A stretch of 64,000 bases of DNA from Mycobacterium saskatchewanense (GTDB taxonomy: Bacteria > Actinomycetota > Actinomycetes > Mycobacteriales > Mycobacteriaceae), in NCBI RefSeq assembly GCF_010729105.1, contig NZ_AP022573.1, positions 1,364,001-1,428,000 of the forward strand, in the 5' to 3' direction. Shown here in pieces: positions 10,363-26,945 of the stretch. Position numbers and translations under genes: made by a program. Every line of letters starts with the position of its first letter. Position 1 is the stretch's first letter. The notes under the pieces were generated by a model that worked only from the letters and a program-made list of their open reading frames with translations, made no database searches and had not been told where the DNA came from.

Positions 10363-11121
10363 GTGAAGTTGAAGCACTGCTCGGCACCGACAGTTGAAGA
10401 CCTGTGCGGAGTCTGGGTGCGTCGTTCGGTGGAGTGGCCGGACGGCCGCTCCGACACCACCACCCGCGTTACGTGGTTGCAAGGTTGGCAATGGTTTGTC
10501 GATCTGCGCCGCCCCGCGGCGTGGCCGGGGGTCAACGCGGACGTTCCGGTTGGCACGACACGACCGCCCGCCCTGGAGGCGTTCGCCGGTCGGCTGGTGC
10601 AGACCTGCCAGGCGCCGGCGGAATTCACGTGGCAGCGCACGGTCGACTGGTCACCGCAGAGCCCCCCGGACGTCGGCAGGCTGAACTGGGACGGCGACAC
10701 CCTGATCGAGGAGGGTGTCCTGCAGCCCTACCGGGAGGTGTGGGTCCGCACGGAGCGGCACAGTCCGGACGACTCGGCCACCGTGCTACTCCGGGATGAC
10801 GCCGGCCGCGACGCCGTCCTGCTGCGCTCGGCCGGGTTCTTCGGATTCGCGGTCGGGCGTCCGTCGAAGGCAGACACCCGGACCGCCGGCATGGGCTCGG
10901 ATTGCGAGATAGCGATCGGCACGATCAGCGACAGCCGTTGGCGCATAAGGTCTTCCACACGAACCGAAACGGAAGGCACGCCGATCTCGGTCCGGATCCG
11001 GGGACGACGAGCCCAGACCACCATCGCCGCACCCGCTGATCACCGCTGCCTGCTGGCCGGCAGCTGGCAGATCAGCGGTCTCACGGGAGACCCGACCCTG
11101 CTTCAGACACACCAGGAGTGA
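10363..11121 (+). CDS. hypothetical protein, 252 aa, first gene before the dioxygenase
   Basis: I do not recognise the family with confidence. The protein is soluble and Trp/Arg-rich with no signal peptide. Segments such as VRRSVEWPDGRSDTTTRV, WLQGWQWFVDLRRP and LIEEGVLQPYREVW suggest a beta-barrel or lipocalin-like fold, loosely reminiscent of HRI1-type proteins. The assigned GTG at 10363 abuts the palindrome and lacks a good Shine-Dalgarno sequence, so the true start may lie a little downstream. The stop is 2 bp before the ATG of the dioxygenase, and its last bases contain the AGGAG used by that gene. The two genes should therefore be co-transcribed. Confidence 0.6.
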   Translation: MKLKHCSAPTVEDLCGVWVRRSVEWPDGRSDTTTRVTWLQGWQWFVDLRRPAAWPGVNADVPVGTTRPPALEAFAGRLVQTCQAPAEFTWQRTVDWSPQSPPDVGRLNWDGDTLIEEGVLQPYREVWVRTERHSPDDSATVLLRDDAGRDAVLLRSAGFFGFAVGRPSKADTRTAGMGSDCEIAIGTISDSRWRIRSSTRTETEGTPISVRIRGRRAQTTIAAPADHRCLLAGSWQISGLTGDPTLLQTHQE

Positions 11122-11123
11122 AC

Positions 11124-12143
11124 ATGCCCAGTCCAACATCCTTCGATACGGTGCCCGAGATCAACATCTCGGGCCTCTCTTCCCGGGATCCCGCGGTGCG
11201 AGCCGCCGTCGCGCAGGAGCTCGGCGAGGCCGCGCACCGCGTCGGGTTCATGTACGTCAGCGGGAGCGGGGTGCCAGATGCGGTCTTCGACCGCATGCAC
11301 AATGCATCACAGGCATTCTTCGACCAACCCATGGACGCGAAAATGGCCGTCTATATCGGGAATTCGACCAATCACCGCGGATATGTGCCCGAAGGCGGAG
11401 AGGTGTTCGCGGGTGGAACGGCCGACAAGAAGGAGGCCTACGACTGCGCGCGGCACCGCCCCGATCGCGCCGGCGCCACGGCGCTGAGCGGGCCGAACCA
11501 GTGGCCGGAGCTACCGGGATTTGCCGACGCTGTCAGTGAGTATTACGAGGCGGTGTTCGAAGCGGGACGGGCGATCATGCGAGGATTCGCGCTTTATCTC
11601 TCGGAACCGGAGGACTTCTTCGACCGCGTACTGACAGATCCGCCAAGCCAACTGCGGCTCATTCACTATCCGGTGGATGAGAGCGCCGTCGACCGCCCCG
11701 GCATCGGCGCACACACCGACTACGAGTGCATCACCCTGTTGAAGGCCACGCAGCCCGGCCTCGAGGTGCTCAACGGCGCCGGTCAGTGGATCGACGTGCC
11801 GCCCAGGCCAGGCTGTTTCGTGGTCAACATCGGCGACATGTTAGAGCTGTGGACCAACGGACTGTTCGTTGCGACCACTCACCGCGTGCGTAAGGTGGTC
11901 GACGAAAGGTATTCTTACCCGCTGTTTTTCAGTGTCGATTACGACACCGTCGTCGAACCGCTGCCGAAGCTGCGGTCCCCCGGTCAGCCCCCTCGTGAAG
12001 GGCTCCGGGCGGGCGATCATCTCTTCGCGCAAACGGCACAGAGCTTCGTCTATCTGCGCGCCCGCATCGACGCCGGCGAGCTATCCCTGCCGGCAGGGTC
12101 TCTGGCGCTGTCGTCTTTTGGTCATTCCGAAACCGCACCCTGA
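11124..12143 (+). CDS. isopenicillin N synthase-like 2-oxoglutarate/Fe(II) dioxygenase
   Basis: 339 residues; ATG at 11124 with AGGAG 5 bases upstream. The N-terminal DIOX_N domain is visible (VPEINISGLSS, GEAAHRVGFMYVSGSG). The iron site is HTD in GIGAHTDYECITLL and the His in ATTHRV, followed by an Arg/Ser pair (RYSYPLFFSVDYD) that would bind 2-oxoglutarate. Such enzymes hydroxylate or oxidatively cleave amino-acid-like substrates. The neighbours (amino acid permease, guanidine-related genes) make a guanidino acid such as homoarginine a reasonable guess, since related homoarginine hydroxylases release guanidine. That assignment is inference. Confidence 0.87.
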   Translation: MPSPTSFDTVPEINISGLSSRDPAVRAAVAQELGEAAHRVGFMYVSGSGVPDAVFDRMHNASQAFFDQPMDAKMAVYIGNSTNHRGYVPEGGEVFAGGTADKKEAYDCARHRPDRAGATALSGPNQWPELPGFADAVSEYYEAVFEAGRAIMRGFALYLSEPEDFFDRVLTDPPSQLRLIHYPVDESAVDRPGIGAHTDYECITLLKATQPGLEVLNGAGQWIDVPPRPGCFVVNIGDMLELWTNGLFVATTHRVRKVVDERYSYPLFFSVDYDTVVEPLPKLRSPGQPPREGLRAGDHLFAQTAQSFVYLRARIDAGELSLPAGSLALSSFGHSETAP

Positions 12144-12154: not shown

Positions 12155-13705
12155 ATGGCAACCGACGTGATCGAACCACCCATCGTCGACGAAGGCCGCG
12201 ACCTCGCGACATTCGGCTACAAACAACAGCTGCATCGCAAGATGGGCCGGTTCGCCTCCTTCGCGGCAGGCTTCTCGTTCATCTCGGTGCTGACCGCCGT
12301 CTTCCAGCTGGCCGGACTCGGCTTCTCCTTCGGCGGCCCGGCATTCGTGTGGACGTGGCCGGTGGTGCTCGGGGGCCAACTCCTCGTCGCGCTGTGTTTC
12401 GCCGAACTCGCCGCCCGCTACCCTCTTTCGGGCGCGATCTACCAGTGGTCCAGCCGCCTGGCCAACCCGACATTCGGCTGGTTCGCGGGCTGGATCATGA
12501 TCGTCGGCCAGATCGTCGTCATGACCAGCGCGGCCATCGCCCTGCAAGTGGTGCTGCCGCAGATCTGGAGTGGCTTTCAACTGATCGGCGGCGACCCCTC
12601 CCCCACCACCACGACAGGCGTGCACAACGCAATCCTGTTGGCGGGCATCCTGATGGCGCTGACCACCATCATCAACATCATCGGCATCAGGCTGATGGCC
12701 CTGATCAACAACATCGGTGTGGTGTCGGAGATCAGCGGCGCCACCGCCATCATCATCCTGCTCATCGCACACGGCGGACGCTCGGGCGGCGTCCTGGTCA
12801 CGACCGGTACCGTCAGCCACGCGGGCTACTTCGGCGCCCTGCTGTGCGCTTCCTTCACCGCCGCCTACGTCCTGGTCGGATTCGACAGCGCCAGTGAGAT
12901 GTCGGAGGAAACCCGCAACGCGCGCCGAATCGCGCCGCGCACCACCCTGCGCGCCCTGTCGGCGGCGGGGATACTCGGATTCGGGATCATCGTGGCGATG
13001 GTCCTCGCCGCCCCCAGCCTCACCGACGGCAAGCTCGCCGACGAGGGACCCGCCTACGTGGTCGCGACCGTGCTGTCGGGGACGACCGGGAAGATCTTGC
13101 TGACCATGGTCGCCATCGCGATCTGCGTCGCGACACTGGCGATACAGACCGCAGGCTCGCGCATGCTGTTCTCCATGGCCCGCGACAGACGCACCCTGTT
13201 CCATGGCGTGCTTTCCCATGTTCCCCAACGCACCGGCACCCCCGCGGCCGCCGCGATCGCGATCGGAATCAGCGCCACCGCGGTGCTGATGCTCAACCTC
13301 GGACCCCAGGCCGCCTTCGTCGCAATGGAATCGACCTGCATCATCATCATTTACCTCGCCTACCTGATGGTCACCGGCGCAATGCTGGTGAAGCGCCTAC
13401 GCGGCGAACGAGTGTTCAACGCCGACGCCTTCGACGACGACGGCCGACGCGCCTTCAGCATGGGACGAGCGGGCCTGTGGCTGAATGCCGCGGCGGTCGC
13501 CTACGGCGCCGCCATGTTCGTCAACCTGATCTGGCCCCGCCAATCGATCTACGACCCCCAGGGCGGTCACTGGTATCTCCAGTATTTTCCGCTGATGTTC
13601 ACCGCCGGAACGATCGTCGTGGGCGCGGTGATCTACGCCGCCGTCCACGGGACACCAAACACCCTGAAGCTCCGGCAATGGACGCTCGCACCGTCCGTCG
13701 ACTGA
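12155..13705 (+). CDS. APC-superfamily amino acid/amine permease
   Basis: 516 residues with about 12 hydrophobic segments. Family landmarks are FASFAAGFSFISVLTAVF at the first helix, ARYPLSGAIYQWSS, and FDSASEMSEETRNARRIAPR in the loop after helix 6. This is the amino acid/choline/GABA branch (AmtA/BAT1-like). The ATG follows AAGGG, 11 bp after the dioxygenase stop, so it is in the same operon. It probably imports the amino acid or guanidino compound used by the dioxygenase. Confidence 0.9.
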   Translation: MATDVIEPPIVDEGRDLATFGYKQQLHRKMGRFASFAAGFSFISVLTAVFQLAGLGFSFGGPAFVWTWPVVLGGQLLVALCFAELAARYPLSGAIYQWSSRLANPTFGWFAGWIMIVGQIVVMTSAAIALQVVLPQIWSGFQLIGGDPSPTTTTGVHNAILLAGILMALTTIINIIGIRLMALINNIGVVSEISGATAIIILLIAHGGRSGGVLVTTGTVSHAGYFGALLCASFTAAYVLVGFDSASEMSEETRNARRIAPRTTLRALSAAGILGFGIIVAMVLAAPSLTDGKLADEGPAYVVATVLSGTTGKILLTMVAIAICVATLAIQTAGSRMLFSMARDRRTLFHGVLSHVPQRTGTPAAAAIAIGISATAVLMLNLGPQAAFVAMESTCIIIIYLAYLMVTGAMLVKRLRGERVFNADAFDDDGRRAFSMGRAGLWLNAAAVAYGAAMFVNLIWPRQSIYDPQGGHWYLQYFPLMFTAGTIVVGAVIYAAVHGTPNTLKLRQWTLAPSVD

Positions 13706-13776: not shown

Positions 13777-14814
13777 CTGAAGCGCCCCGAGGTCAACGCT
13801 GCGCGGGCAGCCACCCGTGGCCGGGTCACCATCAAGGACATCGCGCGCGTCGCCGGTGTCTCGGTCACGACGGTGTCGGATGCCCTGTCCGGCAACGGCC
13901 GGCTGACTGCCGGGACGCGCGAGCGGGTGCGCAAGATCGCCGACGACCTCGGCTACCGGCCGAGCGCGGCCGCCCGCAGCCTGGTGGGCGCGCGCACCGG
14001 GCTCCTGCTGATGTCGGTGAGCGCGCCGGGGACCGAACCCTCGTCGCTGTGGAACATCGACTTCTTCGCCAATCTCATGACGGCGGCGGCAATCCGATCG
14101 GCGGAGCGGGGCTTCGCGTTGGCGCTGTCGCCGGCATCGGTGCCGCCGAACTTGTCTTACGACGGCGTGATCATCGTCGACCCCACCGCCGCGGACGACG
14201 GCCTGCTGGTGCAGGTTGCTCGCGACCGGGTCCCGCTCGTCACCGTGGGCCGGACACCGGCGGGGCACCCGTGGGTGGACAACGACTACCCGACCCTCGT
14301 CCCCGCGATCATGGACCACTTTCGGGCTGCGGGCGCGCGCCGTCCGGCGTTGTTGGCGGGCGACCCGGCAACCTCGTACGTCCGCGACACGGTCGAGCAG
14401 TACACGCAATGGTGCGCGGCCCACCGTTGCGCCACCCGCATCGCCTATGTCGACGACGGCATCACCGAAGAGTCCGGGCGGGCCGCCGCGAAGCGATTGC
14501 TGTCGCGCCGCGTGCGCTCGGACGCCGTGTTGGCAACGCTCGACCGCCTCGCGCTGGGCGTCACGGCCGCCGTCGAAGAGGTCGGGTTGTCGGTTCCCGA
14601 GGACGTCTTGGTCGCCGCACTCGGTGACAGCGCGACGATCAAGCACTCGCGAGTGCCGATCACCGCAGTAGACCTGATGCCACAGCAGATCGGAACGGCC
14701 GCGGTCGATTCGTTGATCGCGCGCATCACCGGACGCGTGGCCGTGCCGAATCAGGTTGTGCCCGGCCATCTTCGGCTCCGGGCGAGCACCGACCGTCAGC
14801 GCGGCTCGTCATGA
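13777..14814 (+). CDS. LacI-family transcriptional regulator with probable CTG start
   Basis: The HTH reads VTIKDIARVAGVSVTTVSDAL and is followed by the hinge YRPSAAARSLVGARTG, then a periplasmic-binding-protein-like sensor domain (GVIIVDPTAADD, VGRTPAGHPWVDNDYPT). The first ATG/GTG/TTG in frame (13873) would cut the HTH in half. The frame is open back to an upstream TGA at 13744. The only credible start is CTG at 13777, with GGGGAGG five bases before it, giving 345 residues. The 3' end overlaps the convergent hydrolase gene by 19 bp. It probably represses itself and the M24-hydrolase operon through the GAAACGTT sites; the effector is unknown. Confidence 0.88.
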   Translation: MKRPEVNAARAATRGRVTIKDIARVAGVSVTTVSDALSGNGRLTAGTRERVRKIADDLGYRPSAAARSLVGARTGLLLMSVSAPGTEPSSLWNIDFFANLMTAAAIRSAERGFALALSPASVPPNLSYDGVIIVDPTAADDGLLVQVARDRVPLVTVGRTPAGHPWVDNDYPTLVPAIMDHFRAAGARRPALLAGDPATSYVRDTVEQYTQWCAAHRCATRIAYVDDGITEESGRAAAKRLLSRRVRSDAVLATLDRLALGVTAAVEEVGLSVPEDVLVAALGDSATIKHSRVPITAVDLMPQQIGTAAVDSLIARITGRVAVPNQVVPGHLRLRASTDRQRGSS

Positions 14815-15599
14815 TCGCGGTATAACTCCGGCCGCAGGTGCCTCAGGTAGTCGACATCGGACGGCGTGTCCCGCCGCAGCGGCACCTCGACGACCGCGAC
14901 GCGCCGCCGGCACCCAAAGTCCTCCAGGATCTGCCCGTCCGAGCCCACGACCCGGGAGCCGCCGACAAATTCGAAGCCCGACTCCGAACCGACGCGGTTC
15001 ACGTAGATCAGCGGGGTCCGGTTGTCCAACGCCCGCGCGCACGACGCCACCAGGTGATCGCCGTGGAAGGGCGCCATGTTGGCCGCGATACCGATGAAGA
15101 CGTCGGGGTTCTGAAAGGCAAGGGCACGCGCCACTTCGGCGATCTCCAGGTCGAAGCAGATCATCGGGCCGATGCGCACCGTGCCGACATCGACGCAGGC
15201 CAATCGGTCACCCGCGCCGAAGACGGACCCTTCGGTCCCGAACAGGTGAGTCTTGCGGTAGTTTCCGGCGATCGAGCCCGCGGAGTCGATGACCAGCATC
15301 GAGTTGTACACGGCCCCGTCGTCGCCGCGCTCGAGATAGCCACCGACAAAGGCGGTCTGAAATTCGGCGGATACCCGGCGGATCGCGGATATCGCGGCCG
15401 CATCGAGTCCCATGGCCAGCCCCCCGAGGCGGTCCAACTGGTAGCCCGTCAGGAAGAGCTCGGGAAAGACCGCGATGTCGACGCCGGGCCGCTCGCCGAG
15501 GAGGACCCGGACCCGCTCGACGTTGGCGTCGACGTCGCGCGGGGCCGGGCTCTCCTGCACCATCAGGGTGAGCAGCCGGTCCGGTCGGGCACCGGTCAT
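14796..15599 (-). CDS. carbon-nitrogen hydrolase (nitrilase superfamily amidase)
   Basis: 267 residues from the ATG at 15599, where the conserved domain begins. The Glu-Lys-Cys triad is visible: Glu in AVFPELFLTGYQ, Lys in NYRKTHLFGTE and Cys in GPMICFDLEI. Members hydrolyse linear amides or N-carbamoyl compounds; omega-amidase, N-carbamoylputrescine amidase and guanidinobutyramide-type activities occur in the family. It follows the M24 peptidase gene by 10 bp in the same operon and is convergent with the LacI gene. The substrate is unknown, but a guanidino-amide would fit the setting. Confidence 0.88.
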   Translation of the reverse strand: MTGARPDRLLTLMVQESPAPRDVDANVERVRVLLGERPGVDIAVFPELFLTGYQLDRLGGLAMGLDAAAISAIRRVSAEFQTAFVGGYLERGDDGAVYNSMLVIDSAGSIAGNYRKTHLFGTEGSVFGAGDRLACVDVGTVRIGPMICFDLEIAEVARALAFQNPDVFIGIAANMAPFHGDHLVASCARALDNRTPLIYVNRVGSESGFEFVGGSRVVGSDGQILEDFGCRRRVAVVEVPLRRDTPSDVDYLRHLRPELYRDHDEPR

Positions 15600-15609: not shown

Positions 15610-16773
15610 TCAGCCGTCCAGGCCGTAGCCCGCGGGCGAAAGCCTGCGAACGCCATCATGTTCGACGACATAGTTGTCTTCCAGCTTGAGCAGCAGGAAG
15701 CGTCCGTCGACCTCGAGGCCGGTCTCCGGCTCCAGGGCGATGACGCTGTTCTCCACCAGCACCTGGTCGCGGTCGGTCATCGATTCCCGGTAGATCGTGG
15801 GCAGTTCGCAGGCGCGCAAACCCACCCCGTGTCCGATGGCATACGGGGTGGTGGGCAGCCCCTCCGACCGCAGGTATTCGTTCACGACGTCATCGATTTG
15901 CGATACGCGGACACCCGGTTTGGCGGCGTCGGCGGCGACCTCGTGCGCCTTGAGCAGTTTGGCGTACACCGACTTGATCTCCGCGCGGGTGTCGCCGCCC
16001 ACGAAGCCGGTACGCGCGATGTCGGAGGCATAGCCGTGCCGGCCGTAGAGACCGATGTCGAAGAAGTAGGGATCGCCTTCCGCGAGCACCGTGCCCTCGG
16101 CGAACCAGCCGCCGTCTCCGCGGCTGTGGTTGCACAACGAGTGACTCAGAAACTCCGGACCGCTTTCCTGCAGGCTCGCCATGACCGCGGCCAGCACGTC
16201 GTGGTCGGTCATACCGGCTTCGGCGGCCTTGAAACCGGCCTCGGCGCCGCGCGAATTGACGATGCTGGCATCTTCGAGCAACCGGATCTCGTCCGGAGTC
16301 TTGCGGATGCGCACGTCGTAGAGCTCGCAGCCAACCGGAACGAATTCTGCACCGGGCAACGCAGATTCGAGCCGTCGCAGCACGGCGGGATCGATCAGTT
16401 CGATCCCGACCTTCTTGGCGCCGCCGAGTGCACCGACCAGTCCCGCCGTCCACGTCTCGGGGTGCCCGACCATCGGTGCCCAGGACGGCATCGGATGGAT
16501 CGCGCTGATCCACGGCAGTTCCGCGAGCGGATCGACCTGGGTTTGGTCGACCCACGGCGCAAAGATCTCGGCCCGGCCATCCTGGTCGACCACGGCGGCG
16601 AACCAGTCGAATGCCTCCGAAATGATTTGCGTGCGGTAGTCGGTCGCATACCGGATGTGGTCGAAGCCGGTCAGCAATAGGTGCGACAGGCCTTGTCGCC
16701 TCATCAGATCGGCGACTGCTTCGCGGCGATCGTTTCGCAGCCGATCGACATCGACGGCGGACCAGTCGTACAT
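15610..16773 (-). CDS. M24-family metallopeptidase (Xaa-Pro dipeptidase-like)
   Basis: 387 residues; ATG at 16773 with AAGAGGAG upstream, rather than the longer frame to 16884. An N-terminal creatinase-like domain (LSHLLLTGFDHIRYATDYRT) precedes the pita-bread catalytic domain. The five metal ligands appear present: Asp in YFFDIGLYG, Asp in ASDIARTGF, His in IGHGVGL, and Glu in IYRES and EDNYVV. Creatinase itself lacks these ligands, so this is more likely a true metallohydrolase (dipeptidase, or ectoine-hydrolase-like) than creatinase. It is divergent from the riboswitch-controlled genes and preceded by two LacI-type operator candidates. Confidence 0.85.
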   Translation of the reverse strand: MYDWSAVDVDRLRNDRREAVADLMRRQGLSHLLLTGFDHIRYATDYRTQIISEAFDWFAAVVDQDGRAEIFAPWVDQTQVDPLAELPWISAIHPMPSWAPMVGHPETWTAGLVGALGGAKKVGIELIDPAVLRRLESALPGAEFVPVGCELYDVRIRKTPDEIRLLEDASIVNSRGAEAGFKAAEAGMTDHDVLAAVMASLQESGPEFLSHSLCNHSRGDGGWFAEGTVLAEGDPYFFDIGLYGRHGYASDIARTGFVGGDTRAEIKSVYAKLLKAHEVAADAAKPGVRVSQIDDVVNEYLRSEGLPTTPYAIGHGVGLRACELPTIYRESMTDRDQVLVENSVIALEPETGLEVDGRFLLLKLEDNYVVEHDGVRRLSPAGYGLDG

Positions 16774-16948: not shown

Positions 16949-17087
16949 ATGTCTACCGTCAGCCGCCGGAGCCAGCGCGAAAAGTGTTGGCGCCTAGCGC
17001 AAGCCGTCGGTTACATTGCCGACATCTGGCAGAAATGGCGGCGACACGTGCGCCGCTTAGCGTTTCTGCCAGGTTCCCGACGGGAAT

Positions 17088-17178
17088 CTGTGCCTAGGGT
17101 TCCGCTCGCACGAGGCCTGGACCGAGGGGCGCACCCGCACCGCCTGCGGGCACACCAGGGGACAAAAGCCCGGAAGGA
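17088..17178 (+). ncRNA. guanidine-I riboswitch (ykkC aptamer)
   Basis: Three diagnostic blocks occur in the right order and spacing: CTAGGGTTCCG at 17094-17104, CTGGACCGAG at 17117-17126 (consensus CTGGTCCGAG), and GGGACAAAAGCCCGG at 17159-17173. Between the last two is a perfect stem, CCCGCA/TGCGGG, at 17134-17150. These are the conserved elements of the ykkC/guanidine-I aptamer, which binds free guanidinium. It lies on the plus strand upstream of the leader ORF, the creatininase-like gene and the ligase gene, so that transcript should respond to guanidine. No second copy was found before the carboxylase operon. Confidence 0.92.
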
Positions 17179-17181
17179 TTG

Positions 17182-17216
17182 CGGAGCCTTCGCTCCGAAG
17201 TCATCGGAGGGCAGCA
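17182..17216 (+). promoter_or_regulatory. expression platform of the guanidine riboswitch
   Basis: Two mutually exclusive hairpins follow the aptamer: CGGAGC-CTTC-GCTCCG at 17182-17197 and TCCGA-AGTCA-TCGGA at 17194-17208. The second pairs with the left part of the GGAGGG Shine-Dalgarno sequence (17207-17212), so it would hide the ribosome site. The first would free it. There is no U-run, so control is more likely of translation than of termination. The switching mechanism is inferred from base pairing only. Confidence 0.55.
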
Positions 17217-17282
17217 ATGCCTCTGGTCAGCGGTGGGCAATCGGCGCGCCGTCCGCGCATCCCCGAAACGGTTTCGTCGTGA
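17217..17282 (+). CDS. short leader ORF (21 codons) coupled to the creatininase-like gene
   Basis: ATG at 17217 with GGAGGG five bases upstream is the best ribosome site in the leader. It encodes a 21-residue Arg/Ser/Pro-containing peptide beginning MPLVSGGQ. Its TGA (17280-17282) overlaps the GTG of the creatininase-like gene, which has no Shine-Dalgarno of its own. The leader ORF may therefore pass ribosomes on to that gene under riboswitch control. The peptide resembles nothing I know and need not have a function of its own. Confidence 0.5.
   Translation: MPLVSGGQSARRPRIPETVSS
17264..17276. repeat. 13-bp palindrome CGAAACGGTTTCG
   Basis: A perfect inverted repeat (CGAAAC-G-GTTTCG) just before the GTG of the creatininase-like gene. 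It shares the GAAAC/GTTTC half-sites of the LacI operator candidates but has an odd centre. It could be a further, weaker site or a small hairpin at the start codon. Confidence 0.35.
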
Positions 17283-18064
17283 GGTGGGGCGAATGCACCT
17301 CGCCGCAGCTCGGCCGGCTCAACTTGGCGGATCGGGTCGGGCTGGTCCCGGTGGGAGCCATCGAGCAACACGGTCCGCATCTACCGACCGACACCGACAC
17401 CAGACTCGCGCAGGCGATATGTGACGGAGCCGCCGCGCGATGTGCTGCCGCGATCGTGCTGCCGGCCCTATCGGTGGGGTGCAGCCTGGGCCATGGGACG
17501 GCCTTCCCGGGGACGCTGTCACTGTTCCCCGAAGAGCTGTCCCGACTCCTGATTCGTGTCGCCGAGTGGTCGGCCCTGAGCGGCCTCACTCGCCTGATCT
17601 TCGTCAACGGGCACATGGGCAACGTCGCGGCGCTGGGTGCGGCGACCGATCGGCTGCGGTTCTCCCGACCCGGCCTCAAGTCCAACTGGGTCGACTGGTG
17701 GAACGCCAGCCGCGAGATCACCGCTGAGGTGCTGGCCGACGGTGAGGACATCCACGCCAACCGAGCGGAGACTTCACTCGCGCTGCATGTGTTCCCTGAA
17801 CTGGTCGATCTCTCCGCGATGACCGGCGCCGACGACCCGGACCGCACCGGCGGCCTGACCTTTCGCTATACAGCAGAAGTGTTGTCGGGCAACGGCGTCA
17901 CGGGCTGTCCGTCGCAGGCCACGGCGGCGCTCGGCGAAACGCTCTTCGAAGCGATCGTGGATGTCGTTGCCGGCAAGGCCCTTGCCGGGATCGCCGAAGA
18001 GCCACCGCTACCCCGGCCGCACGGCCGAACCCCCGAACTCATCGAATTTTCAGGAGGCAGTTGA
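17279..18064 (+). CDS. creatininase-family metal-dependent amidohydrolase
   Basis: 261 residues from a GTG at 17279. Family motifs are LVPVGAIEQHGPHLPTDTD (Glu, His and Asp metal ligands), FVNGHMGN and DIHANRAETS. The family hydrolyses cyclic or linear amides: creatinine, mycofactocin precursor, and formamide intermediates in riboflavin/F420 biosynthesis. Its transcript is preceded by a guanidine-I riboswitch, and the next gene is a glutamine synthetase-like ligase (1-base overlap TGATG). A role on a guanidino lactam or amide is likely. Creatinine itself is only one candidate, since the nearby M24 protein does not look like creatinase. Confidence 0.85.
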   Translation: MRWGECTSPQLGRLNLADRVGLVPVGAIEQHGPHLPTDTDTRLAQAICDGAAARCAAAIVLPALSVGCSLGHGTAFPGTLSLFPEELSRLLIRVAEWSALSGLTRLIFVNGHMGNVAALGAATDRLRFSRPGLKSNWVDWWNASREITAEVLADGEDIHANRAETSLALHVFPELVDLSAMTGADDPDRTGGLTFRYTAEVLSGNGVTGCPSQATAALGETLFEAIVDVVAGKALAGIAEEPPLPRPHGRTPELIEFSGGS

Positions 18065-19446
18065 TGGATACGGTCAACGTCGTCGAACCCAACCACCGGG
18101 AGCTCGCGGAATCGCTCGCGCGCCGTGGCGTGAAGTATGCACTGGGTTCGTGGATCGATGTGCACGGCAGACCCAAGACGAAGGCGGTGCCCATCGATCA
18201 CCTTCCCAACATGCTGGCCGGCTCGGAGCGCTTCACTCCCCGGGGCATCACCGGATTCGGCGCGATGGACCCGCAGGAAGAGGAGTCCGTCGCGATACCG
18301 GACCTCACCACGTTGCGGCAGCTGTCCTGGGACAAACGGTTTGTCTGGATGGCCGCCGACATCATGTTCGGCGGGACCGAGCCCCTCGATCAGTGTCCGC
18401 GCAGCATTCTCAAAGCACAGCTGAACAGGGCGCGCGAACTGGGATTCGAGTTCAAACTCGGTGTCGAGACCGAGGTTTTCGTGTTCAACCCGGCCGAGCC
18501 GCGGGACGCGACCGGCTACCTGACACCGCTCGCCGCCAGCGGCGGTCTCAAACCCTGCCCGGCCTATGATGCCGAAGCCACGCTGGATGCGTCGGAGTTC
18601 CTCGACGATTTCGTGACAGCCCTGCGCGACAACGACTTCGGCGTCTTCAGCTTCGACCACGAGGGCGGTGACGGGCAGTACGAATTCGACTTCGAGTACG
18701 ACGGTGCGCTCGAGATGGCCGACCGGATAACCTTCTTCCGCCTGATGATCCGCCAGATCGCCAAGCGGCACGGCCTCGCGGTCACCTTCATGCCCAAGCC
18801 GTACACCGAAGCGTGGGGATCCGGCCACCACTACAACATGAGCCTGGTGTCGTCCGAGACCGGCGCGAACCTCATGCGCGATCCCGCTGACCCGCGAGGG
18901 ATGGGCTGGAGCGCAACGGCGTACGCCTTCGTCGCGGGCCTCATGCGGCATGCGGACGCCCTTGCCGCGATCGTGACGCCGACGGTCAATTCCTACAAGC
19001 GGCTCAACCCCAAGCTGGCCGACGGCACGCCCTCATGGGCACCGGTGTGGTCGGCCTATGGTGAACAAAATCGATCGTGCATGCTGCGGTTGCCCAAGAA
19101 CCGCCCGGCGGTGGAGAACCGCGTCGTCGACTCGGCGGCGAACACCTACCTGGCAGCGGCGTTTTCGCTGGCCGCCGGGCTCGACGGAATCGAACGCGGG
19201 CTGGATCCCGGGGACCCGGTGGACGTCGCGCTGGTCGACACGCAGGCGGACCCGACCCTGAACGCCGTTCGGCTGCCGCGCAACTTGCTCGAGGCGACCG
19301 ACGCCTTCGCCCGCAGCGAGCTGGCCGGCCGAGTCTTTCCCAAGCGTTTCGTCGCCGAATACGTCGACATGAAATACTCGGAATGGCATTCGTACCACAG
19401 CACGGTGAGCGACTGGGAGCGGGATCGCTACCTGTTTGCGCTGTGA
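18064..19446 (+). CDS. type III glutamine synthetase-like ligase (GlnT / gamma-glutamyl-amine ligase)
   Basis: 460 residues. AGGAGG precedes the ATG at 18064, which shares one base with the upstream stop. Glutamine synthetase blocks are present: KLGVETEVFVFN (metal Glu), DGQYEFDFEYDGAL, SGHHYNMSL (nucleotide/metal His) and NRSCMLRLPKNRPAVENRV. The opening VKYALGSWIDVHGRPKTKAVPIDHL is typical of the GlnT branch, whose members make glutamine or gamma-glutamylated amines such as gamma-glutamylmethylamide. In this operon it may trap ammonia or an amine released from a guanidino compound. Confidence 0.87.
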   Translation: MDTVNVVEPNHRELAESLARRGVKYALGSWIDVHGRPKTKAVPIDHLPNMLAGSERFTPRGITGFGAMDPQEEESVAIPDLTTLRQLSWDKRFVWMAADIMFGGTEPLDQCPRSILKAQLNRARELGFEFKLGVETEVFVFNPAEPRDATGYLTPLAASGGLKPCPAYDAEATLDASEFLDDFVTALRDNDFGVFSFDHEGGDGQYEFDFEYDGALEMADRITFFRLMIRQIAKRHGLAVTFMPKPYTEAWGSGHHYNMSLVSSETGANLMRDPADPRGMGWSATAYAFVAGLMRHADALAAIVTPTVNSYKRLNPKLADGTPSWAPVWSAYGEQNRSCMLRLPKNRPAVENRVVDSAANTYLAAAFSLAAGLDGIERGLDPGDPVDVALVDTQADPTLNAVRLPRNLLEATDAFARSELAGRVFPKRFVAEYVDMKYSEWHSYHSTVSDWERDRYLFAL

Positions 19447-19459: not shown

Positions 19460-20086
19460 TTGACGCAGTCCCGAGCCCCGTCGACACGGTCGCACCACCG
19501 CAGGCGAGCGGTGCTCCGTTCGACGGCCGCCGTGTTGCGCCGGCGGGGATTCGACGCGGTCACGAGCCGGTCCGTCGCCGCGGAGGGTGGCCTGCCGGAA
19601 CAGACCGTGCGGGCCTACTATCCCTCTCGCGACGATCTGCGCGCCGCCGGGCTCAAGTTCATGCTCAACGGGTGGATCGAGCAGGCCAACGACTTCATCA
19701 AGCGCCTTCCCACGAGTCTCGATCTCGAGGAGACGGCCCGCCTCATCATCGAGGTCGCCACGGTGCATGCCGCCGAGGACGAGTCCTTCACCCGCGCAAC
19801 AATCTCCGGTGTTTACGAGCGGTACCTGCAGGCGGGCAAGCACGCCGAACTGACCTCGTTGATCAGTGCGTACAACGACGTGCTGGCCGACCTGGTCGGC
19901 CATGTGCTGGCACGCAACGGCCGGCACGCCAGCCCCCGGGTGTGCCGTGCCGTCCTGGCGGTCGCGGACGGAACCGTGATCTATGAACTCGCGGCCGGGG
20001 AAAATCCCGTGCCCCGGGCGATTCAGATGCTCGAATTCGCGATACCGCAACTCTGCGCGCCCCCAGGCGATCGCCAAACCCGATGA
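19460..20086 (+). CDS. TetR-type transcriptional regulator
   Basis: 208 residues from a TTG at 19460 with GAGGAGG upstream, 13 bp after the ligase stop, so in the same operon. The HTH is AVLRRRGFDAVTSRSVAAEGGLPEQTVRAYYPSRDDL in outline (a TetR helix-turn-helix at residues about 20-65). The C-terminal ligand domain is poorly conserved. It probably regulates the island. Confidence 0.75.
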   Translation: MTQSRAPSTRSHHRRRAVLRSTAAVLRRRGFDAVTSRSVAAEGGLPEQTVRAYYPSRDDLRAAGLKFMLNGWIEQANDFIKRLPTSLDLEETARLIIEVATVHAAEDESFTRATISGVYERYLQAGKHAELTSLISAYNDVLADLVGHVLARNGRHASPRVCRAVLAVADGTVIYELAAGENPVPRAIQMLEFAIPQLCAPPGDRQTR

Positions 20087-20120: not shown

Positions 20121-20828
20121 ATGACCCAACCCCGCCGCGGACGCCCCAGGATCATCGATCAGCGCAGGCCTGGCGACACGCCCCGGGAGGAGATTCTCGA
20201 CGCCGCCGCCGAGCTGTTCACCGAATGCGGGTACACCGCGACATCGACGCGGGCCATCGCCGACGCCGTCGGCATCAGGCAGAGCAGCATCTATCACCAC
20301 TTCGAGACCAAGGACGACATCCTCGACAACCTGCTGGTGCGTACGGTTGACGCGTCGGCGACACTGGCGCGACAGCTCCTCGACCACCCGGGCTCGGCGG
20401 CCAGCCGCCTCTACGTCATGGTCTGGTACGACTCCCACCAGTTGCTGGCCAGTCGCTGGAATCTGGGTGCCCTGTATCAGTTGCCGGAGAGCCGGGGTAC
20501 CAAGTTCCCCCGCTTCGAGTCGCGTCGCGAGTACCTCCGAAAGGGCTATCGTCAACTCGCGCGCCAGACCTGCTCCGAGTCCAGCGCCTGGCAGCGGCGA
20601 CCGAAAATCGAGACGACCGTCGCGACGGAGCTGCCGTTCCACTTCGTCGAGACGGCGATTCAGATCAGGCTCGATACCCCGGGGTGGTTGGGCAAGGTGG
20701 GGGCGCAGTGCATCGCCACGGGCATCGCCGACTCCTGCTTGCGCGCACTGACCGCCACCAGCGGGACGAGACTGAAGGCGCAGGCGCATCGCATACTCGG
20801 CGAGTTGACGGCACCTCCGGAGGAATGA
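20121..20828 (+). CDS. TetR-family transcriptional regulator
   Basis: 235 residues from the ATG at 20121. A clear TetR HTH: REEILDAAAELFTECGYTAT, then RAIADAVGIRQSSIYHHFE. It lies 34 bp after another TetR-like gene and is convergent with the allophanate hydrolase gene, whose 3' end is 26 bp away. It may regulate the carboxylase operon, but no operator is evident. Confidence 0.88.
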   Translation: MTQPRRGRPRIIDQRRPGDTPREEILDAAAELFTECGYTATSTRAIADAVGIRQSSIYHHFETKDDILDNLLVRTVDASATLARQLLDHPGSAASRLYVMVWYDSHQLLASRWNLGALYQLPESRGTKFPRFESRREYLRKGYRQLARQTCSESSAWQRRPKIETTVATELPFHFVETAIQIRLDTPGWLGKVGAQCIATGIADSCLRALTATSGTRLKAQAHRILGELTAPPEE

Positions 20829-20854: not shown

Positions 20855-22618
20855 TCAGGCCGATGTCGCCTCCGCGGCGGACTGCACTGCCCGCAGATAG
20901 GTCGGCCAGTCCCCGTACTGGGAGATGTCCTCGCCTTCCTGCCAAGCGTCGAGGGCGCAGCCGAAGCCGACCACCTCATCCCCGTTTGCCAGGGTGATGG
21001 GCCCCAGCGCCATCGGCGCGGGCAGGGCCGCGAGGAATTCGCCCAACATGGCCGTGCCGACGAGCCACAGTTCGCCTCGGATCGGCACGCCGGCCCGGGC
21101 GCCGACCCGGACCAGCCCCGGCTTGGCCGGCGCAGTGTCGAGGCGAGCGAGGCGGTAGAGCGGCGCGGTGGCGGCGGGCCCCACCCAGCGGGCCCCGCGA
21201 CCGGTGAGTTGATGCGCCAGGGGCTGGTCGCGCAGATGCGCACCGACGACGAAAAGTTGGGTCGCGGCAAAGCCGGCTCGTACCGGCCATGGGGCGGGGG
21301 CCTGTTGAGGTTCCTTCTGCGGCAGTGAGACCGCGCCGGGCCGGGCCACCGGCGGCGTCGGGACGACGGCTAGGCGCGCCAGGTCCAGTGCGACCGCGTC
21401 GGCCCCCGACCTGGCCACCACAGTGACGCCGAATTGGGAACCGTCGGCCGTGCCCGCCGGCACCGCGACCGCGCAGAGATCCATCAAATTGCAGAAGTTG
21501 GTGTAGACGCCGAGCGCGGAGTTGACGGCCACGGGGTCGGCGGCGACCTGCGCGATCGTCGGGTGGTGTGTCGTGGTGGGAACCAGCAACGCGTCACAGC
21601 CGCCCAATTCGGCGAGCGCGGACGCGGTGAGCTCGGCGAGCCGGACGCGGTCGGCGAGCAGGTCGGTGGCGCGCACCGTCCCCGCGGCCGACACGATCGC
21701 CCCGACCGTCGGATCCACCTCGGCCGGGTGGGCGTCGACGAAAGCCCCTACGGCTTCGTGCCTTTCGGCCACCAGGCCGCCGTCGTAGAGCAACCGAGCC
21801 GCATCAAGGAAGGGGGCTAGGTCGATTTCCCGCAGCGCTACACCGCGTTTCGCGAGGCGGTCGCAGGCATCGCGGAACGCCGACCGCCACGATCCGGACA
21901 ATCCCGGCAGCTCCCGCGGGACCGCCACGGTGGCCCTCGACGGCACGGCCAGCGGCGCGTCGGGCGGAAATGGGCGGGCGCCACCGGCCATTACCCCCAT
22001 CGCGACGTCGGCCGTGTCGATGTCGCGCGCCAGCACCGTCACGCAGTCGTAGGAGCGGCACGCGGGAACGACACCGTCGATCGGCACCAGGCCGGGCGTG
22101 GGTTTGATGCCCACGACACCCTGCAGCGCCGCGGGCACCCGGCCGGATCCCGCGGTATCGGTGCCAACCGCGACATCGGCTAGCCCGAGGGCGACAGCGA
22201 CCGCCGAACCGGAGCTCGAGCCGCCCGAGATGTACTCGGGGCGACGGGCATCCCGCACCGCTCCGTGCGGGCTGCGCGTGCCGACCAGACCGGTCGCGAA
22301 CTGGTCGAGGTTGGTCGCGCCCAGGACGACAGCGCCCGCGTCGCGTAACCGCGCCACCACGGGGGCGTCGGCGGCCGCCGGTGCGGTCGCGAAAGCGGGA
22401 CATCCTGCGGTGGTCGCCAGCCCGGCAACGTCGACGTTGTTCTTGACGGCGGCGACGAGTCCGGCAAGCGGCCGGTCCTCGCCGTTCGCGACGGAGTCGT
22501 CGACGGCCGCCGCCTCGGCCAGCGCGTCTGCCATGGGCCGCAGGAAGACCCAGATCTCCGGGCGGTCGACGGCCTCGATGGCCGCGTACGCCGCGCGCAC
22601 CCGGTCGACGGCGCTCAT
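20855..22618 (-). CDS. atzF: allophanate hydrolase (amidase-signature plus C-terminal domain)
   Basis: 587 residues. The start ATG at 22618 overlaps the upstream carboxylase stop (ATGA). The amidase-signature domain (about 1-440) has the Ser-cisSer-Lys residues in VAAVKNNVDVAG and SGGSSSGSAVAVALG, with GTDTAGSGRVPA following. The last 120 residues (FVVGAHLRDQPLAHQL to QEGEDISQYGDW) are the AtzF/DUR1-type C-terminal domain, so this is a full allophanate hydrolase. It splits allophanate into two ammonia and two CO2 (the second domain acts on the N-carboxycarbamate intermediate). It completes degradation of urea or of guanidine via carboxyguanidine. Confidence 0.93.
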   Translation of the reverse strand: MSAVDRVRAAYAAIEAVDRPEIWVFLRPMADALAEAAAVDDSVANGEDRPLAGLVAAVKNNVDVAGLATTAGCPAFATAPAAADAPVVARLRDAGAVVLGATNLDQFATGLVGTRSPHGAVRDARRPEYISGGSSSGSAVAVALGLADVAVGTDTAGSGRVPAALQGVVGIKPTPGLVPIDGVVPACRSYDCVTVLARDIDTADVAMGVMAGGARPFPPDAPLAVPSRATVAVPRELPGLSGSWRSAFRDACDRLAKRGVALREIDLAPFLDAARLLYDGGLVAERHEAVGAFVDAHPAEVDPTVGAIVSAAGTVRATDLLADRVRLAELTASALAELGGCDALLVPTTTHHPTIAQVAADPVAVNSALGVYTNFCNLMDLCAVAVPAGTADGSQFGVTVVARSGADAVALDLARLAVVPTPPVARPGAVSLPQKEPQQAPAPWPVRAGFAATQLFVVGAHLRDQPLAHQLTGRGARWVGPAATAPLYRLARLDTAPAKPGLVRVGARAGVPIRGELWLVGTAMLGEFLAALPAPMALGPITLANGDEVVGFGCALDAWQEGEDISQYGDWPTYLRAVQSAAEATSA

Positions 22619-25600
22619 GCCGACACCTCCATGACGTCCCTTTCCGATAGGGGCGGGGCCACGACCACCAACGGGGTGCCCGGGTCGACCTGGTGGCCCG
22701 CCTCCACCAATACCCTTGTGACGACACCGTCGACGGGGGCGGTCAATACCGTCTCCATCTTCATCGCCTCGAGCGCAAGCAGCGCCTGACCCGCGACCAC
22801 ATCGTCGCCGACCGCGACGTCCACCCTCCACACGTTCGAGGAGAACGGCGCGTCCACCCGCTGCTCGTCGCGGTCAAGCACCAGGTCGACGCTGGCGGCC
22901 GCAGAACGGGATTCGGCCCGTTGCGCGCGGTCGAACTCCCCCGCCGCAGCCCACGCGTCGCGTTCGGCGGCGAACGCGACGCTCTGGCGCGCGCGGAACT
23001 CCGCGATCGATTCCGCATGGTCGGACAGGAACCGCTCGTGGTCGGCGAGCGAGAAGGAACCCGGGGTGATCTCGACGGTGCCCCGGCCCGCGGCCAGGTC
23101 GGCGCGCAGGTCCAGCAACTCCTCCGCCGAAACCGGGTACCAGCTGATGCGGTCGAAGAATCTGAGCAGGCAAGGGTTTTCGGGCTCGAACGGCGCGGTG
23201 TGCCGATAGCTGCTCCACACCTGCGTGGTCCGTCCTACGAACTGATAGCCGCCCGGCCCCTCCATCCCGTAGATGCACAGATACGCGCCGCCGATGCCGA
23301 CCGAGTTCTCGGCCGTCCAGGTGCGTGCGGGGTTGTACTTGGTAGTCACCAACCGGTGCCGGGGATCGAGCGGTGTCGCCACGGGCGCGCCGAGGTACAC
23401 GTCGCCGAGGCCCAGCGTCAGGTACTCCGCCGAGAACACGATCCCCATGACTTCGTCGCGCGACGCCAAACCGTTGACCCGCCTGATGAACTCGATGTTC
23501 GACGGGCACCACGGCGCGTCGTCACGCACCCCCGACATGTACCGCGCGATGGCCTCACGGGTCGCGGGGTCGTCCCAGCTCAAGGGCAGCCGGACCGACC
23601 TGCTCGGGACGACGATATCCGACGTCGCCGGCAGCGTTTCTTCCACGTCCGACAGCAACCCGAGCAAGCTGTTGACCGACAGCTCGTCCGGGTCCACATG
23701 CACCTGCAGCGACCGGATTCCCGGTGTCAGGTCGATGATTCCGGACACGCCGCCGTCCCGGCGCAGCTCGTCCAGTCTGCGATGCAGGGCATGAACGCGG
23801 ACGCGCAGCGCGAGATCGAGGACCATCTCGCCGTACTCGACCAGGACGTTGTCGTCGCCGCTGCGGCGGTAGGTGACCGAAGGACCGCCGTCCAGGGCTC
23901 GGCGGGCGAGCACTCCGTCGTCGCCGTCGCCGCCGGTGCGGGGCACGAAACCCGCTGCGCCGCGGGCTTTCCCCACATCGCGGCGCGACGGCACGTCAGC
24001 GGCGCGGACGGGGACGAACCGGACGGTGTCGCCCGGGCGCAGTTGCCCCAGTTTCCACCGATCGGCCGAGGTGACGGTGAGGGGGCAAACGAAGCCACCC
24101 AGGCTCGGGCCATCGGGGCCGAGCAGGATCGGGGTGTCACCGGTGAAATCCAGCGCACCCACGGAATAGGCGTTGTCGTGGATGTTCGACGGGTGCAATC
24201 CGGCTGCCCCGCCGTCGGGTCGCGCCCATTCCGGCTTGGGGCCTTCGAGGCGCACGCCGGTGCGCGCCGAGTTGAAGTGCACGCGGTACCGGCTGTGACA
24301 AATGCTGTCGATGTCGGCGCGGGTGAAGAATTCCGGCGCGCCGTGCGGGCCCTCGGTGACGGCGAGTTCCCAGTCGGACCGCATCGCCGGGCGCTCCACG
24401 GGCGGCACCGCCGCCGTAGCCCCCTGGCGCACTGTGGGGTTGGCGCGCAGCACGTCGCCGGTCACCAGTGCACGCCCGCCGTGACCGCCGAACCGCCCGA
24501 GCGTGAAGGTGGACGCGCTGCCGAGATAATCCGGCACATCGAACCCACCGGCGATGAGCACGTATGTGCGCAAACCTTTCTCGGCGGCCCCGACGTCGAG
24601 CACGCCGCCCGCCGGAACCTCGACAGGCTCCCACATCCGCACGGGCGCCCCGTCCACCGTCACCGGGCATTCGGCCCCCGTGACGCACACCGTCGTCGGG
24701 TGCGTCACGCGCAGCGCCGGGCCCGTCGACGTACACTCGAGCCCCGGTGCCCCGTCGGCGTTGCCGAGGGCGCGGTTGCCGAGGCGAAACGACAGGTCGT
24801 CCATCGGCCCGCTCGGCGGCACCCCGACGTCCCACCTGCCCAGCCGCCCGGGCAGGTCCTGAACCGTGGTCAGCAGGCCCGGGCGCTCGACTGTGACGCT
24901 GGGGCGCGGATCCTCGACGCCGGCGAAGGTGGCGGTGCTGTGCGTGGCGGCCCGCACGTCGCGGTGATCCAACGCCGCGCGCGCCGCGCCGATGTTGACC
25001 TCGATGCCCCGCACGTCGGTGGCGTCCAGGGCGGCGCCGAGCCGATCCAGGGCGGTGTCGCGGTCGGAGGCCGCGACAATGACTTTGGCCAGCAGTGGGT
25101 CGTATGACGCCGTGACGTCGGTGCCCGCCTCGACCCAGGTGTCGACGCGGACGTCGCTCCCGTCGGCGAGCCGGTCGGGGAAGGTGACCGCAGTGAGAAT
25201 TCCGGTGCTGGGGCGGTAGTCGCGCCACGGGTTTTCGGCATACACCCGCGCCTCCACCGCGTGTCCCACCACGGCGACGGCACCGGTGGTGGCGCCGGGT
25301 GCCAGGTGTTCGGACAGCATCTCCCGTTCGCCGCGGGCCAGCCGAAACATCCAACCCGGCAGGTCGATCCCGGTCACCGCCTCGGTGACGGGGTGCTCCA
25401 CTTGCAGGCGCGCGTTCACCTCGAGGAACGACGCCTGCTTGCGCCGCGGGTCGTAGACGAATTCGACGGTGCCCGCCGACCGGTAGTTCACCGACGCGGC
25501 CAGCGCGCGCGACGAGGAATGCAACAGCTCGCGCAGGTCATCGGGCAGGGCGGGCGCCGGCGCCTCTTCGATCACCTTCTGGTTGCGGCGCTGCAGCGAA

Positions 25601-26289: not shown

Positions 26290-26945
26290 TCGCCGTCCGC
26301 CTGACCCGGCCGGGTCACGATCATGCGGACTGGTGTGGGGTCGAATGCGTTGCACGGGTTGTTGATCTGCGGGCAGTTCGACACCAGGACCAGCGTGTCG
26401 ATGTCCGCACGCAGCGCGACCCGCTTGCCCGGCGCGGACAGGCCGTCGACGATGCCGAGCGCGCCGTCGGGGTCCACGGGCACGTTCATGAACCAGTTGA
26501 TGTTGCTGGCAAGGTCCCGCGCGCCGAGGCCGTAGCGCGCGCCCTCGATCAGGAAGTTCTCCATGCAGCCGTGCTGGGCCCGGGTGTGCTGACCGTAGCG
26601 CAGGGTGTTGGACTCCTTGGAGCAAGCGCCGCCGAGGGTGTCGTGGGCACCCACCTCGTCGGCGACCACCGTCATCAGTGCGGCACCGGTGTCCGCGCGC
26701 AGCACCGATCCGGTGGTCAGGGTGATGCGCCCTTGCCGCGCAATGGTTTCCGGCGCCGAGTAGCGGACCGACGTGTCGACGGCGGAATAGAGTAGGCAGT
26801 CCACGGCCTGGTTGCCGGCGAGGTCGACGATGGTCAGCGCGTCGCCGGCGGCGACCACCGCCGACCACGCCGCGCGCGGGGCGACGGTCTGGTCGAGGAT
26901 CACCGCTCCGTTCACGAGCGCAGCGGTCGAGCAGCTCGTGGTCAC
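26286..26945 (-). CDS. DUF1989 protein, UAAP2 type (carboxyguanidine deiminase subunit)
   Basis: 219 residues of the urea-amidolyase-associated-protein type. Key blocks are IVDLAGNQAVDCLLYSA, DEVGAHDTLGGACSKESNT with the conserved Cys, HGCMENFLIEGARYGLG, and NINWFMNVPVDPDG. DUF1989 pairs next to a urea-type carboxylase form the carboxyguanidine deiminase CgdAB, converting carboxyguanidine to allophanate and ammonia. It overlaps both neighbours by 4 bp. This subunit keeps the Cys residues thought to bind metal; its partner does not. Confidence 0.87.
   Translation of the reverse strand: MTTSCSTAALVNGAVILDQTVAPRAAWSAVVAAGDALTIVDLAGNQAVDCLLYSAVDTSVRYSAPETIARQGRITLTTGSVLRADTGAALMTVVADEVGAHDTLGGACSKESNTLRYGQHTRAQHGCMENFLIEGARYGLGARDLASNINWFMNVPVDPDGALGIVDGLSAPGKRVALRADIDTLVLVSNCPQINNPCNAFDPTPVRMIVTRPGQADGE

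Follow-up and report, generated by a model that had tools for sequence, protein, structure and literature searches.

A ykkC-type riboswitch, likely a variant of guanidine-I, precedes a creatininase-family hydrolase and a glutamine synthetase-like ligase in a mycobacterial guanidine island

It was through guanidine riboswitches that guanidine metabolism was discovered, and only few guanidine-producing enzymes are known (PMC12508155). In the parts of that paper used here, the published guanidine carboxylase pathway consists of the carboxylase, CgdA/B and AtzF, and guanidine hydrolase is a ureohydrolase-family enzyme. In V. boliviensis, the 2OG/Fe(II) dioxygenase MgdH and the small beta-barrel lyase MgdL, with the catalytic residues D49 and R51, demethylate methylguanidine (PMC12508155). 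According to the sections of PMC6031431 on ligand classes, A46 marks guanidine-I, and a pyrimidine marks the ykkC subtypes 2a and 2b. A short uORF relays the signal of the ppe2 B12 riboswitch in M. tuberculosis, as the relevant passages of PMC11260477 describe. Here, we compare these systems with a locus in a 64,000 nucleotide stretch of Mycobacterium saskatchewanense DNA (the window), where an aptamer stands before genes for a creatininase-family amidohydrolase (CRN) and a glutamine synthetase-like ligase (GS).

An earlier note on this DNA had placed a guanidine-I riboswitch here because of three conserved blocks and a perfect CCCGCA/TGCGGG stem. All are present at the positions claimed. The CTAGGGTTCCG block lies at 17094-17104, the CTGGACCGAGG block begins at 17117, the GGGGACAAAAGCCCGG block is found near the 3' end of the aptamer, and the stem (17134-17139 and 17145-17150) forms the P2 helix. 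The covariance model supports the fold and family: searched with an E-value threshold in the stretch 16900-17400, RF00442 (Guanidine-I) matched at 17083-17178 on the forward strand with 60.6 bits (E 2.1e-10) and aligned over its full length (model positions 1-107 of 107). This is 2.4 bits under the gathering score of 63, and a default Rfam scan of the 64 kb window therefore returned no family at its gathering score. At E<=10, the 6.0 Mb genome contains no RF00442 match besides this aptamer. At E<=1e-3 such matches occur in 99 of 396 genomes of the genus sample (53 of 396 above the cut-off) and in 6 of 201 genomes of a family-wide draw. The minimum-free-energy fold of the aptamer region by itself is unremarkable (z -0.59). 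A chance match to RF00442 is implausible, and the riboswitch is real. A score below the gathering threshold could also stem from a decayed aptamer without function. We give this next to no weight, since aptamer, linker hairpin and leader ORF are all kept in the window and six relatives, with CRN proteins that share 68-88% identity with that of the window. The window element is a real ykkC-type riboswitch and likely a variant of guanidine-I. It resembles the guanidine-I riboswitch (ykkC subtype 1, RF00442) in fold, in the three conserved blocks and in the guanidine gene neighborhood. It differs by a G instead of an A at the marker nucleotide, by altered letters before GGGA in P3, by a leader ORF between aptamer and gene, and by its score of 60.6 bits against the gathering score of 63.

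The features of the locus are collected in Table 1. The creatininase-like hydrolase and GlnT-like ligase named in the earlier note do stand directly downstream of the aptamer and were recognized as PF02633 and PF00120 proteins. The same note had set them against the classical carboxylase or exporter genes. This contrast is valid only as far as the operon next to the aptamer is concerned, because the carboxylase pathway is encoded in the same island, 3.7 kb downstream on the other strand (20855-27817). By Pfam architectures, gca, cgdA, cgdB and atzF are all present together, and the carboxylase, two DUF1989 genes and the allophanate hydrolase gene lie within 11 kb.

Table 1. Features of the riboswitch locus and the surrounding guanidine island (window positions).
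Feature	Position	Strand	Remarks
PuuR-like regulator	9265-10056	-	
U10, MgdL-like beta-barrel protein	10429..11121	+	no Pfam family; invariant D-x-R
DIOX, 2OG/Fe(II) dioxygenase, MgdH-like	11151..12143	+	HTD at 199 counted from 11118
Permease, TIGR03428-like ("permease, urea carboxylase system")	12155..13705	+	605 bits, cut-off 740
LacI-type regulator	13873..14814	+	
Carbon-nitrogen hydrolase (nitrilase superfamily)	14796..15599	-	
M24/creatinase-family hydrolase	15610..16773	-	divergent
ykkC/guanidine-I-type aptamer	17083..17178	+	P1/P1a/P1b, P2 (17134-17150), P3; RF00442 60.6 bits, E 2.1e-10
Marker nucleotide	17127..17127	+	G where guanidine-I has A and subtype 2 a pyrimidine; presumed position 46 in literature numbering; from letter and column comparison
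Linker hairpin CGGAGC...GCTCCG	17182..17197	+	5 or 6 of 6 pairs kept in 7/7 sequences
Shine-Dalgarno/start region of leader ORF	17203..17227	+	can pair with aptamer P3 strands or itself
Leader ORF, MPLVSGGQSARRPRIPETVSS*	17217..17282	+	21 codons; GGAGGG upstream; stop TGA overlaps CRN start GTG (GTGA)
CRN, creatininase-family amidohydrolase (PF02633)	17279..18064	+	start GTG without clear own ribosome-binding site
GS, type-III glutamine-synthetase-like / glutamate-amine ligase (PF00120)	18064..19446	+	
TetR-family regulator 1	19511..20086	+	
TetR-family regulator 2	20121..20828	+	
Allophanate hydrolase	20855..22618	-	Amidase + AH_C
Urea/guanidine carboxylase	22615..26289	-	biotin carboxylase + carboxyltransferase, 1224 aa
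DUF1989, CgdB-like	26286..26915	-	carboxyguanidine deiminase subunit; A/B choice by analogy
DUF1989, CgdA-like	26942..27817	-	

Upstream of the riboswitch, U10 and DIOX form an arm of their own. A Pfam search with U10 found no family, and W16 and D25-x-R27 are invariant in 11/11 aligned relatives. Its structure was modeled as almost entirely beta (mean pLDDT 82), and at E<=0.001 the model matches a single PDB entry, yeast HRI1 (3rby, E 9e-5, TM 0.53). U10 and DIOX are adjacent in seven of the nine U10-bearing genomes among 394 searched in the class. Because of the D-x-R motif, the all-beta model and the adjacency to DIOX, we read the two as MgdL- and MgdH-like; the window hence holds the combination of a 2OG/Fe(II) dioxygenase and a small beta-barrel D-x-R protein. 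Compared with the V. boliviensis proteins as these are described, U10-DIOX is probably a methylguanidine-demethylation pair. The V. boliviensis gca/mgdH/mgdL operon shares with the window a Gd-I riboswitch, the carboxylase pathway, a 2OG/Fe(II) dioxygenase and a D-x-R lyase. However, the operon legend in PMC12508155 names neither CRN nor GS, and the window riboswitch precedes CRN-GS and not gca or mgdH. A U10 search in Salinisphaera japonica, run without a positive control, gave no match. On a Methylophilaceae contig of 6.8 kb (L220:4328-6255), a guanidine-I aptamer stands before an MgdL-like gene, behind which a TIGR03427-like binding protein is encoded; the contig gave no DIOX match. In two phyla, Rieske oxygenase genes are found close to CRN-GS (L126:4371-5465, L128:12645-13841), where the window has the 2OG/Fe(II) dioxygenase instead.

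A scan of a species-genome collection with a CRN alignment confirmed at least 588 relatives, and the best 80 of these were analyzed. Their loci were picked by CRN similarity and not by guanidine genes. In 34 loci among the best 80, GS is encoded no more than 2 kb from CRN and in the same orientation. Genes for CgdA/B or the carboxylase were found in the fetched flank of 19 of these 34 CRN-GS loci and in 0 of the 46 without GS (p 1.6e-9; best 80 of at least 588), and these flank counts are lower bounds because flank length varies between contigs. Within the same best 80, a CgdB relative (E<=1e-20) is encoded in 31 of 34 genomes of the CRN-GS set versus 13 of 43 without adjacent GS (p 4e-8). The 34-genome set comprises 33 of the 34 GS-positive loci (L124 was left out) plus L125, where a short-chain dehydrogenase gene and not GS follows CRN; the comparison set holds 43 of the 45 genomes without adjacent GS. 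One of the 13 CgdB-positive cases in the latter, L147, is cut at the contig edge and has possibly lost its GS. RF00442 matches were obtained in 11 of the 34 CRN-relative genomes, 10 of them above the cut-off. Outside Actinobacteria, an aptamer directly before the CRN operon was found only in L138 and L157 among the best 80 of at least 588 relatives. L138 has two guanidine-I aptamers, one in front of an ABC importer-CRN-GS operon and the other in front of CgdAB-carboxylase-allophanate hydrolase; L157 has the same two-aptamer arrangement, judged by gene order and ORF size. Four Mycobacterium loci with the order GS-CRN (L127, L132, L134, L153) gave no flank hit for CgdA/B or the carboxylase and no RF00442 match in the genome, and each genome has one CgdB-like gene. 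No CRN match was found on plasmids at E<=1e-20.

Three of the 34 genomes lack CgdB, namely two from Acidimicrobiaceae (G583 and G584; loci L125 and L126) and Methylobacillus arboreus (G600; L142). On one contig, G583 combines an RF00442 match of 83.8 bits with one gene each for urease and an arginase-family protein. G584 likewise has urease on one contig with two arginase-family genes and an RF00442 match, which is weak here (31.5 bits). Judged by this gene content, G583 and G584 probably use the other known guanidine degradation route. Since CRN-type genes thus also occur with the other route, in these two related genomes, a feeder or side reaction fits them better than a step of the carboxyguanidine route. 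G600 has CRN-GS and urease, and searches for CgdB, RF00442 and arginase-family genes gave no match. We conclude, on the basis of gene content and order, that CRN-GS is a conserved pair tied to guanidine metabolism. A missing feeder reaction is suggested by the occurrence of the pair next to guanidine genes in Actinobacteria, Proteobacteria and Verrucomicrobia, and also by the CRN-type genes in two genomes seemingly on another degradation route. The extension of the riboswitch regulon put forward in the earlier note holds insofar as the pair is linked to guanidine genes in several phyla; the association may already be contained in subscription papers.

What CRN and GS do can be narrowed down by comparison with known enzymes. 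CRN shares PF02633 and the conserved EQHG and NGH motifs with creatininase (1j2t) and MftE, but it stays below both equivalog cut-offs: it reaches 105.2 bits with the creatininase model TIGR04448 (cut-off 235) and 135.5 bits with the MftE model TIGR03964 (cut-off 172). Its identity as the mycofactocin protein MftE is ruled out on this score. CRN residues E29, H31, D40, H112, H159 and E164 are kept in 8/8 aligned sequences. The alignment further shows that creatininase E122, W174 and E177 are replaced in CRN by G114, E156 and a gap, respectively; E122 has a metal role in creatininase. The family names PF02633 and Creatinase_N/M24 could suggest an island for creatinine degradation, in which CRN would act as creatininase and the divergent M24 protein would act as creatinase, yielding urea and sarcosine. 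We consider this highly improbable, given the large distance of CRN from the creatininase cut-off and the residues just listed. Furthermore, the M24 protein scores 74.5 bits with prolidase-type chains versus 37.6 bits with creatine amidinohydrolase, and the surroundings of CRN in L114 and L116 gave no M24 match.

The best solved relatives of GS in the PDB are 7cql and the glutamate-methylamine ligase 9qur. Together with the fact that several carriers are methylotrophs by name, this would fit a gamma-glutamyl-amide module for methylamine or another amine that is merely co-regulated with guanidine genes. Against the type III glutamine synthetase model TIGR03105, however, the window GS reaches 434 bits and stays under the cut-off of 469.6 (its relatives in L138 and L142 score 649 and 651 bits), general domain scans of the island recognized no further methylamine-pathway gene, and the co-occurrence is with guanidine genes. 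Hence, a methylamine module seems rather unlikely to us. Creatinine, the substrate of creatininase, is a cyclic acyl-guanidine, which makes hydrolysis of an acyl- or glutamyl-guanidine by CRN chemically plausible. As a tentative scheme for the feeder reaction, GS might act by glutamylation and CRN by cleaving an amide or acyl-guanidine bond; in this way the carboxylase pathway would receive guanidine nitrogen that stems from a substituted guanidine.

Between aptamer and CRN lies the leader ORF. In 7/7 mycobacterial CRN loci such an ORF of 15-21 codons has a stop overlapping the CRN start, and an overlap of this kind is also present in L110, a DIOX-first operon of genus g18. These eight loci therefore share with ppe2-type uORF coupling a short ORF after the aptamer with an overlapping stop. 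L111 and L112 have no leader ORF, and the gene proper starts after the aptamer. By eye, no GGAG-like motif was seen just 5' of the CRN starts. The first leader codons, with the letters CCTCTGGT, are kept in 6/7 loci, and the remainder of the peptide is not conserved. A crude search for overlaps at other riboswitches flagged 4/50 symporter, 9/32 TauE and 5/10 EamA loci, with duplicates kept in and many cases looking like chance. The locus thus resembles the M. tuberculosis ppe2 B12 switch as portrayed in PMC11260477, which likewise combines a riboswitch, a short uORF, an AUGA-type stop/start overlap and a gene without Shine-Dalgarno motif. It differs in aptamer and ligand, and the ppe2 element is an experimentally shown OFF switch (PMC11260477).

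Translational control by the riboswitch is likely. No transcription terminator was noticed by eye. One compensatory pair was seen in the linker hairpin, in L114. If both P3 strands paired with the leader start region, over 14 pairs in all, neither the aptamer P3 nor a 10-pair Shine-Dalgarno hairpin could form at the same time. The 14-pair and the 10-pair leader pairing each persist with <=1 mismatch in 6/7 loci and are lost in L114 (9/14 and 5/10 pairs); no covariation was found in them across the seven loci. Constrained folding covered the window, L113, L119, L118, L120, L116 and L114, and L110 was left out. With the whole aptamer forced (longer tail), the Shine-Dalgarno accessibility dropped from 0.56 to 0.14 in the window, from 0.51 to 0.15 in L113 and from 0.36 to 0.03 in L120. 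It stayed nearly flat in L119 (0.20 to 0.19), L118 (0.20 to 0.21) and L116 (0.57 to 0.56) and rose only in L114 (0.25 to 0.52). With P3 alone forced, accessibility fell in the window (0.54 to 0.15) and in L120 (0.33 to 0.14), increased slightly in L113 (0.51 to 0.60) and changed little in L119 (0.20 to 0.21), L118 (0.20 to 0.21), L116 (0.56 to 0.59) and L114 (0.23 to 0.19). A simple ON switch made from the leader pairings finds no support in these values, as accessibility mostly falls or stays. They could rather fit a translational OFF switch, in which folding of the aptamer frees CCUCUGGU from the ACCAGGGG strand and CCUCUGGU then closes the Shine-Dalgarno hairpin. The mutually exclusive, well-kept pairings and the loss of unpaired Shine-Dalgarno probability in the window speak for such a switch. 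On the other side, guanidine riboswitches are described as inducing expression in the passages at hand of PMC12508155, the pairing of the free state takes in GGGC of the Shine-Dalgarno region as well, the folding values favor neither direction in L119, L118 and L116 and the opposite one in L114, and L113 changes sign under the lighter constraint. An OFF switch is therefore a possibility that we hold with some doubt.

The nucleotide at 17127 sets the aptamer apart from the described classes. This G is neither the A of guanidine-I nor the pyrimidine stated for subtypes 2a and 2b, in a column that we infer to be position 46 of the literature. The covariance model supports fold and family, but the G at this presumed marker position makes the class name Guanidine-I, as used in the earlier note, provisional. 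The subtype 2 RNAs (2a for ppGpp, 2b for PRPP and the orphan 2d before phn_DUF6 transporters) have their scaffold in common with the window; as far as described, 2a and 2b differ from it by the pyrimidine at the marker, and these subtypes stand with other genes (eLife 33908, PMC6031431). We surveyed the marker in 107 distinct RF00442 loci, 104 from the genus and three from genus g18, after removal of two duplicates. Downstream of the 104 loci stand CRN-GS (7), symporter (49), TauE-type (31), EamA-type (10) and deaminase-set (2) genes, with five unclassified; of the symporter (SSF), TauE and EamA classes one representative each was domain-scanned. The aptamers of genus g18 precede DIOX-CRN-GS (L110, genome G017), U10-DIOX (L111, G043) and permease-CgdA/B-carboxylase (L112, G043).

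Setting aside 44 loci with C and one unreadable locus, the marker is G in 8/9 riboswitches before CRN or MgdH/MgdL-like genes versus 0/53 others (Fisher p 2.7e-9, with loci that are not independent). The 53 loci with A comprise 48 symporter loci, that is all readable ones (1/49 was unreadable), two deaminase sets, one permease-CgdAB-carboxylase operon and two unclassified loci. G is found in 6/7 mycobacterial CRN loci including the window, the exception being L116/L060 with A. In genus g18, G precedes both U10-DIOX and DIOX-CRN-GS, and within genome G043 it stands before U10-DIOX and A before permease-CgdAB-carboxylase. L224, outside the survey set, provides one further G, and the only downstream ORF scanned there encodes a partial YjeF_N protein. 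The marker is A in L138, L157 and L220, which all lie outside Actinobacteria and in which ABC-CRN-GS or an MgdL-like gene follows the aptamer. Twelve further U10-DIOX loci of the class showed no RF00442-like aptamer by pattern within ~1.5 kb on either side, and cmscan of five of them gave no RF00442 match; the marker sample is thus not enlarged by them.

This distribution could reflect a specificity variant that binds methylguanidine or another substituted guanidine and not guanidinium itself, matching the MgdL/MgdH- and CRN-type operons under its control. The split between G and A loci across the survey and within G043 argues for such a change, and the column behaves like the published sorter of ykkC ligand classes, as set out in PMC6031431. 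Set against this are the A in the CRN locus L116/L060, the G in L224 with its unrecognized downstream function, the A in the three loci outside Actinobacteria and the presumed mapping of the column to position 46; moreover, G may simply be tolerated with the ligand unchanged. From the sequence comparison an altered ligand of the marker-G aptamer is possible, and we regard a switch to substituted guanidines as doubtful but worth considering. In a broader and more speculative form, which we think unlikely as a whole, the actinobacterial marker-G riboswitches would represent a third ykkC ligand state: sensing a substituted guanidine, with methylguanidine as first choice, they would control through a re-initiation leader peptide a ligase-hydrolase pair that frees guanidine from such compounds and is absent from the searchable literature. 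The natural change at a ligand-specificity marker, tied to methylguanidine-type operons, makes ligand switching in ykkC RNAs testable.

Taken together, the riboswitch would be the control element of one operon within a complete (methyl)guanidine nitrogen-assimilation island. The aptamer of ykkC/guanidine-I fold, assigned by the covariance model, would sense guanidinium or a close N-alkyl relative and, as the conserved complementarity suggests, control translation of the leader ORF via competing pairings. Ribosomes finishing the leader would re-initiate at the overlapping CRN start, and GS follows; we assume re-initiation because of the start/stop overlap, the missing own Shine-Dalgarno sequence and the M. 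tuberculosis precedent. CRN-GS would most likely serve as a feeder module ahead of guanidine degradation. We consider this chain from aptamer over leader ORF to a CRN-GS feeder operon in a guanidine island to be fairly probable as a whole.

A link between a guanidine riboswitch and creatininase (creatinine amidohydrolase), or a joint mention of creatininase, guanidine and glutamine synthetase, was not found in the open-licence literature; most subscription papers lie outside it, and their tables may hold such a link. The searchable portions of PMC12508155 do not contain "glutamine synthetase", and their "creatinin" passages concern creatinine. A 2025 review of guanidine in bacteria contains neither "creatin" nor "glutamine synthetase". 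"ykkC" and "creatinin" are mentioned together in a paper on an amidase in Paenibacillus, in the part available. In the excerpts consulted, published M. smegmatis transcriptomes count urea carboxylase genes and a "creatininase subfamily protein" as nitrogen-responsive and show no CRN-GS pair.

Several other loci deserve mention. In the window, genes at 4112-8947 on the reverse strand encode a putative cyclase, a flavin reductase, an HpaB-type monooxygenase, a RidA-type protein and a permease of the cytosine/purine type; they may form another cluster for the degradation of nitrogen compounds, next to the guanidine island. PPE gene pairs are found near the island in the window (875-3675) and also in L118 and L119, at differing distances. 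On the Acidimicrobiaceae contigs L218, L219, L225 and L226, an RF00442 match occurs with urease and arginase-family genes, which suggests a guanidine hydrolase-urease cluster, and in L225 and L226 an aptamer-like motif precedes the arginase-family genes. Mycobacterial RF00442 matches of ~40-59 bits stand before TauE-type and EamA-type transporter genes (L062-L107, e.g. L096:7001-7114 and L102:7001-7115), most of them with a changed P3, and the marker is C in 31/31 TauE and 10/10 EamA loci. With this C they fit the ykkC subtype 2 type, unlike the window, and by sequence they seem to resemble the orphan subtype 2d (phn_DUF6) more than guanidine-I. The association of a ykkC-type RNA with TauE may be new.
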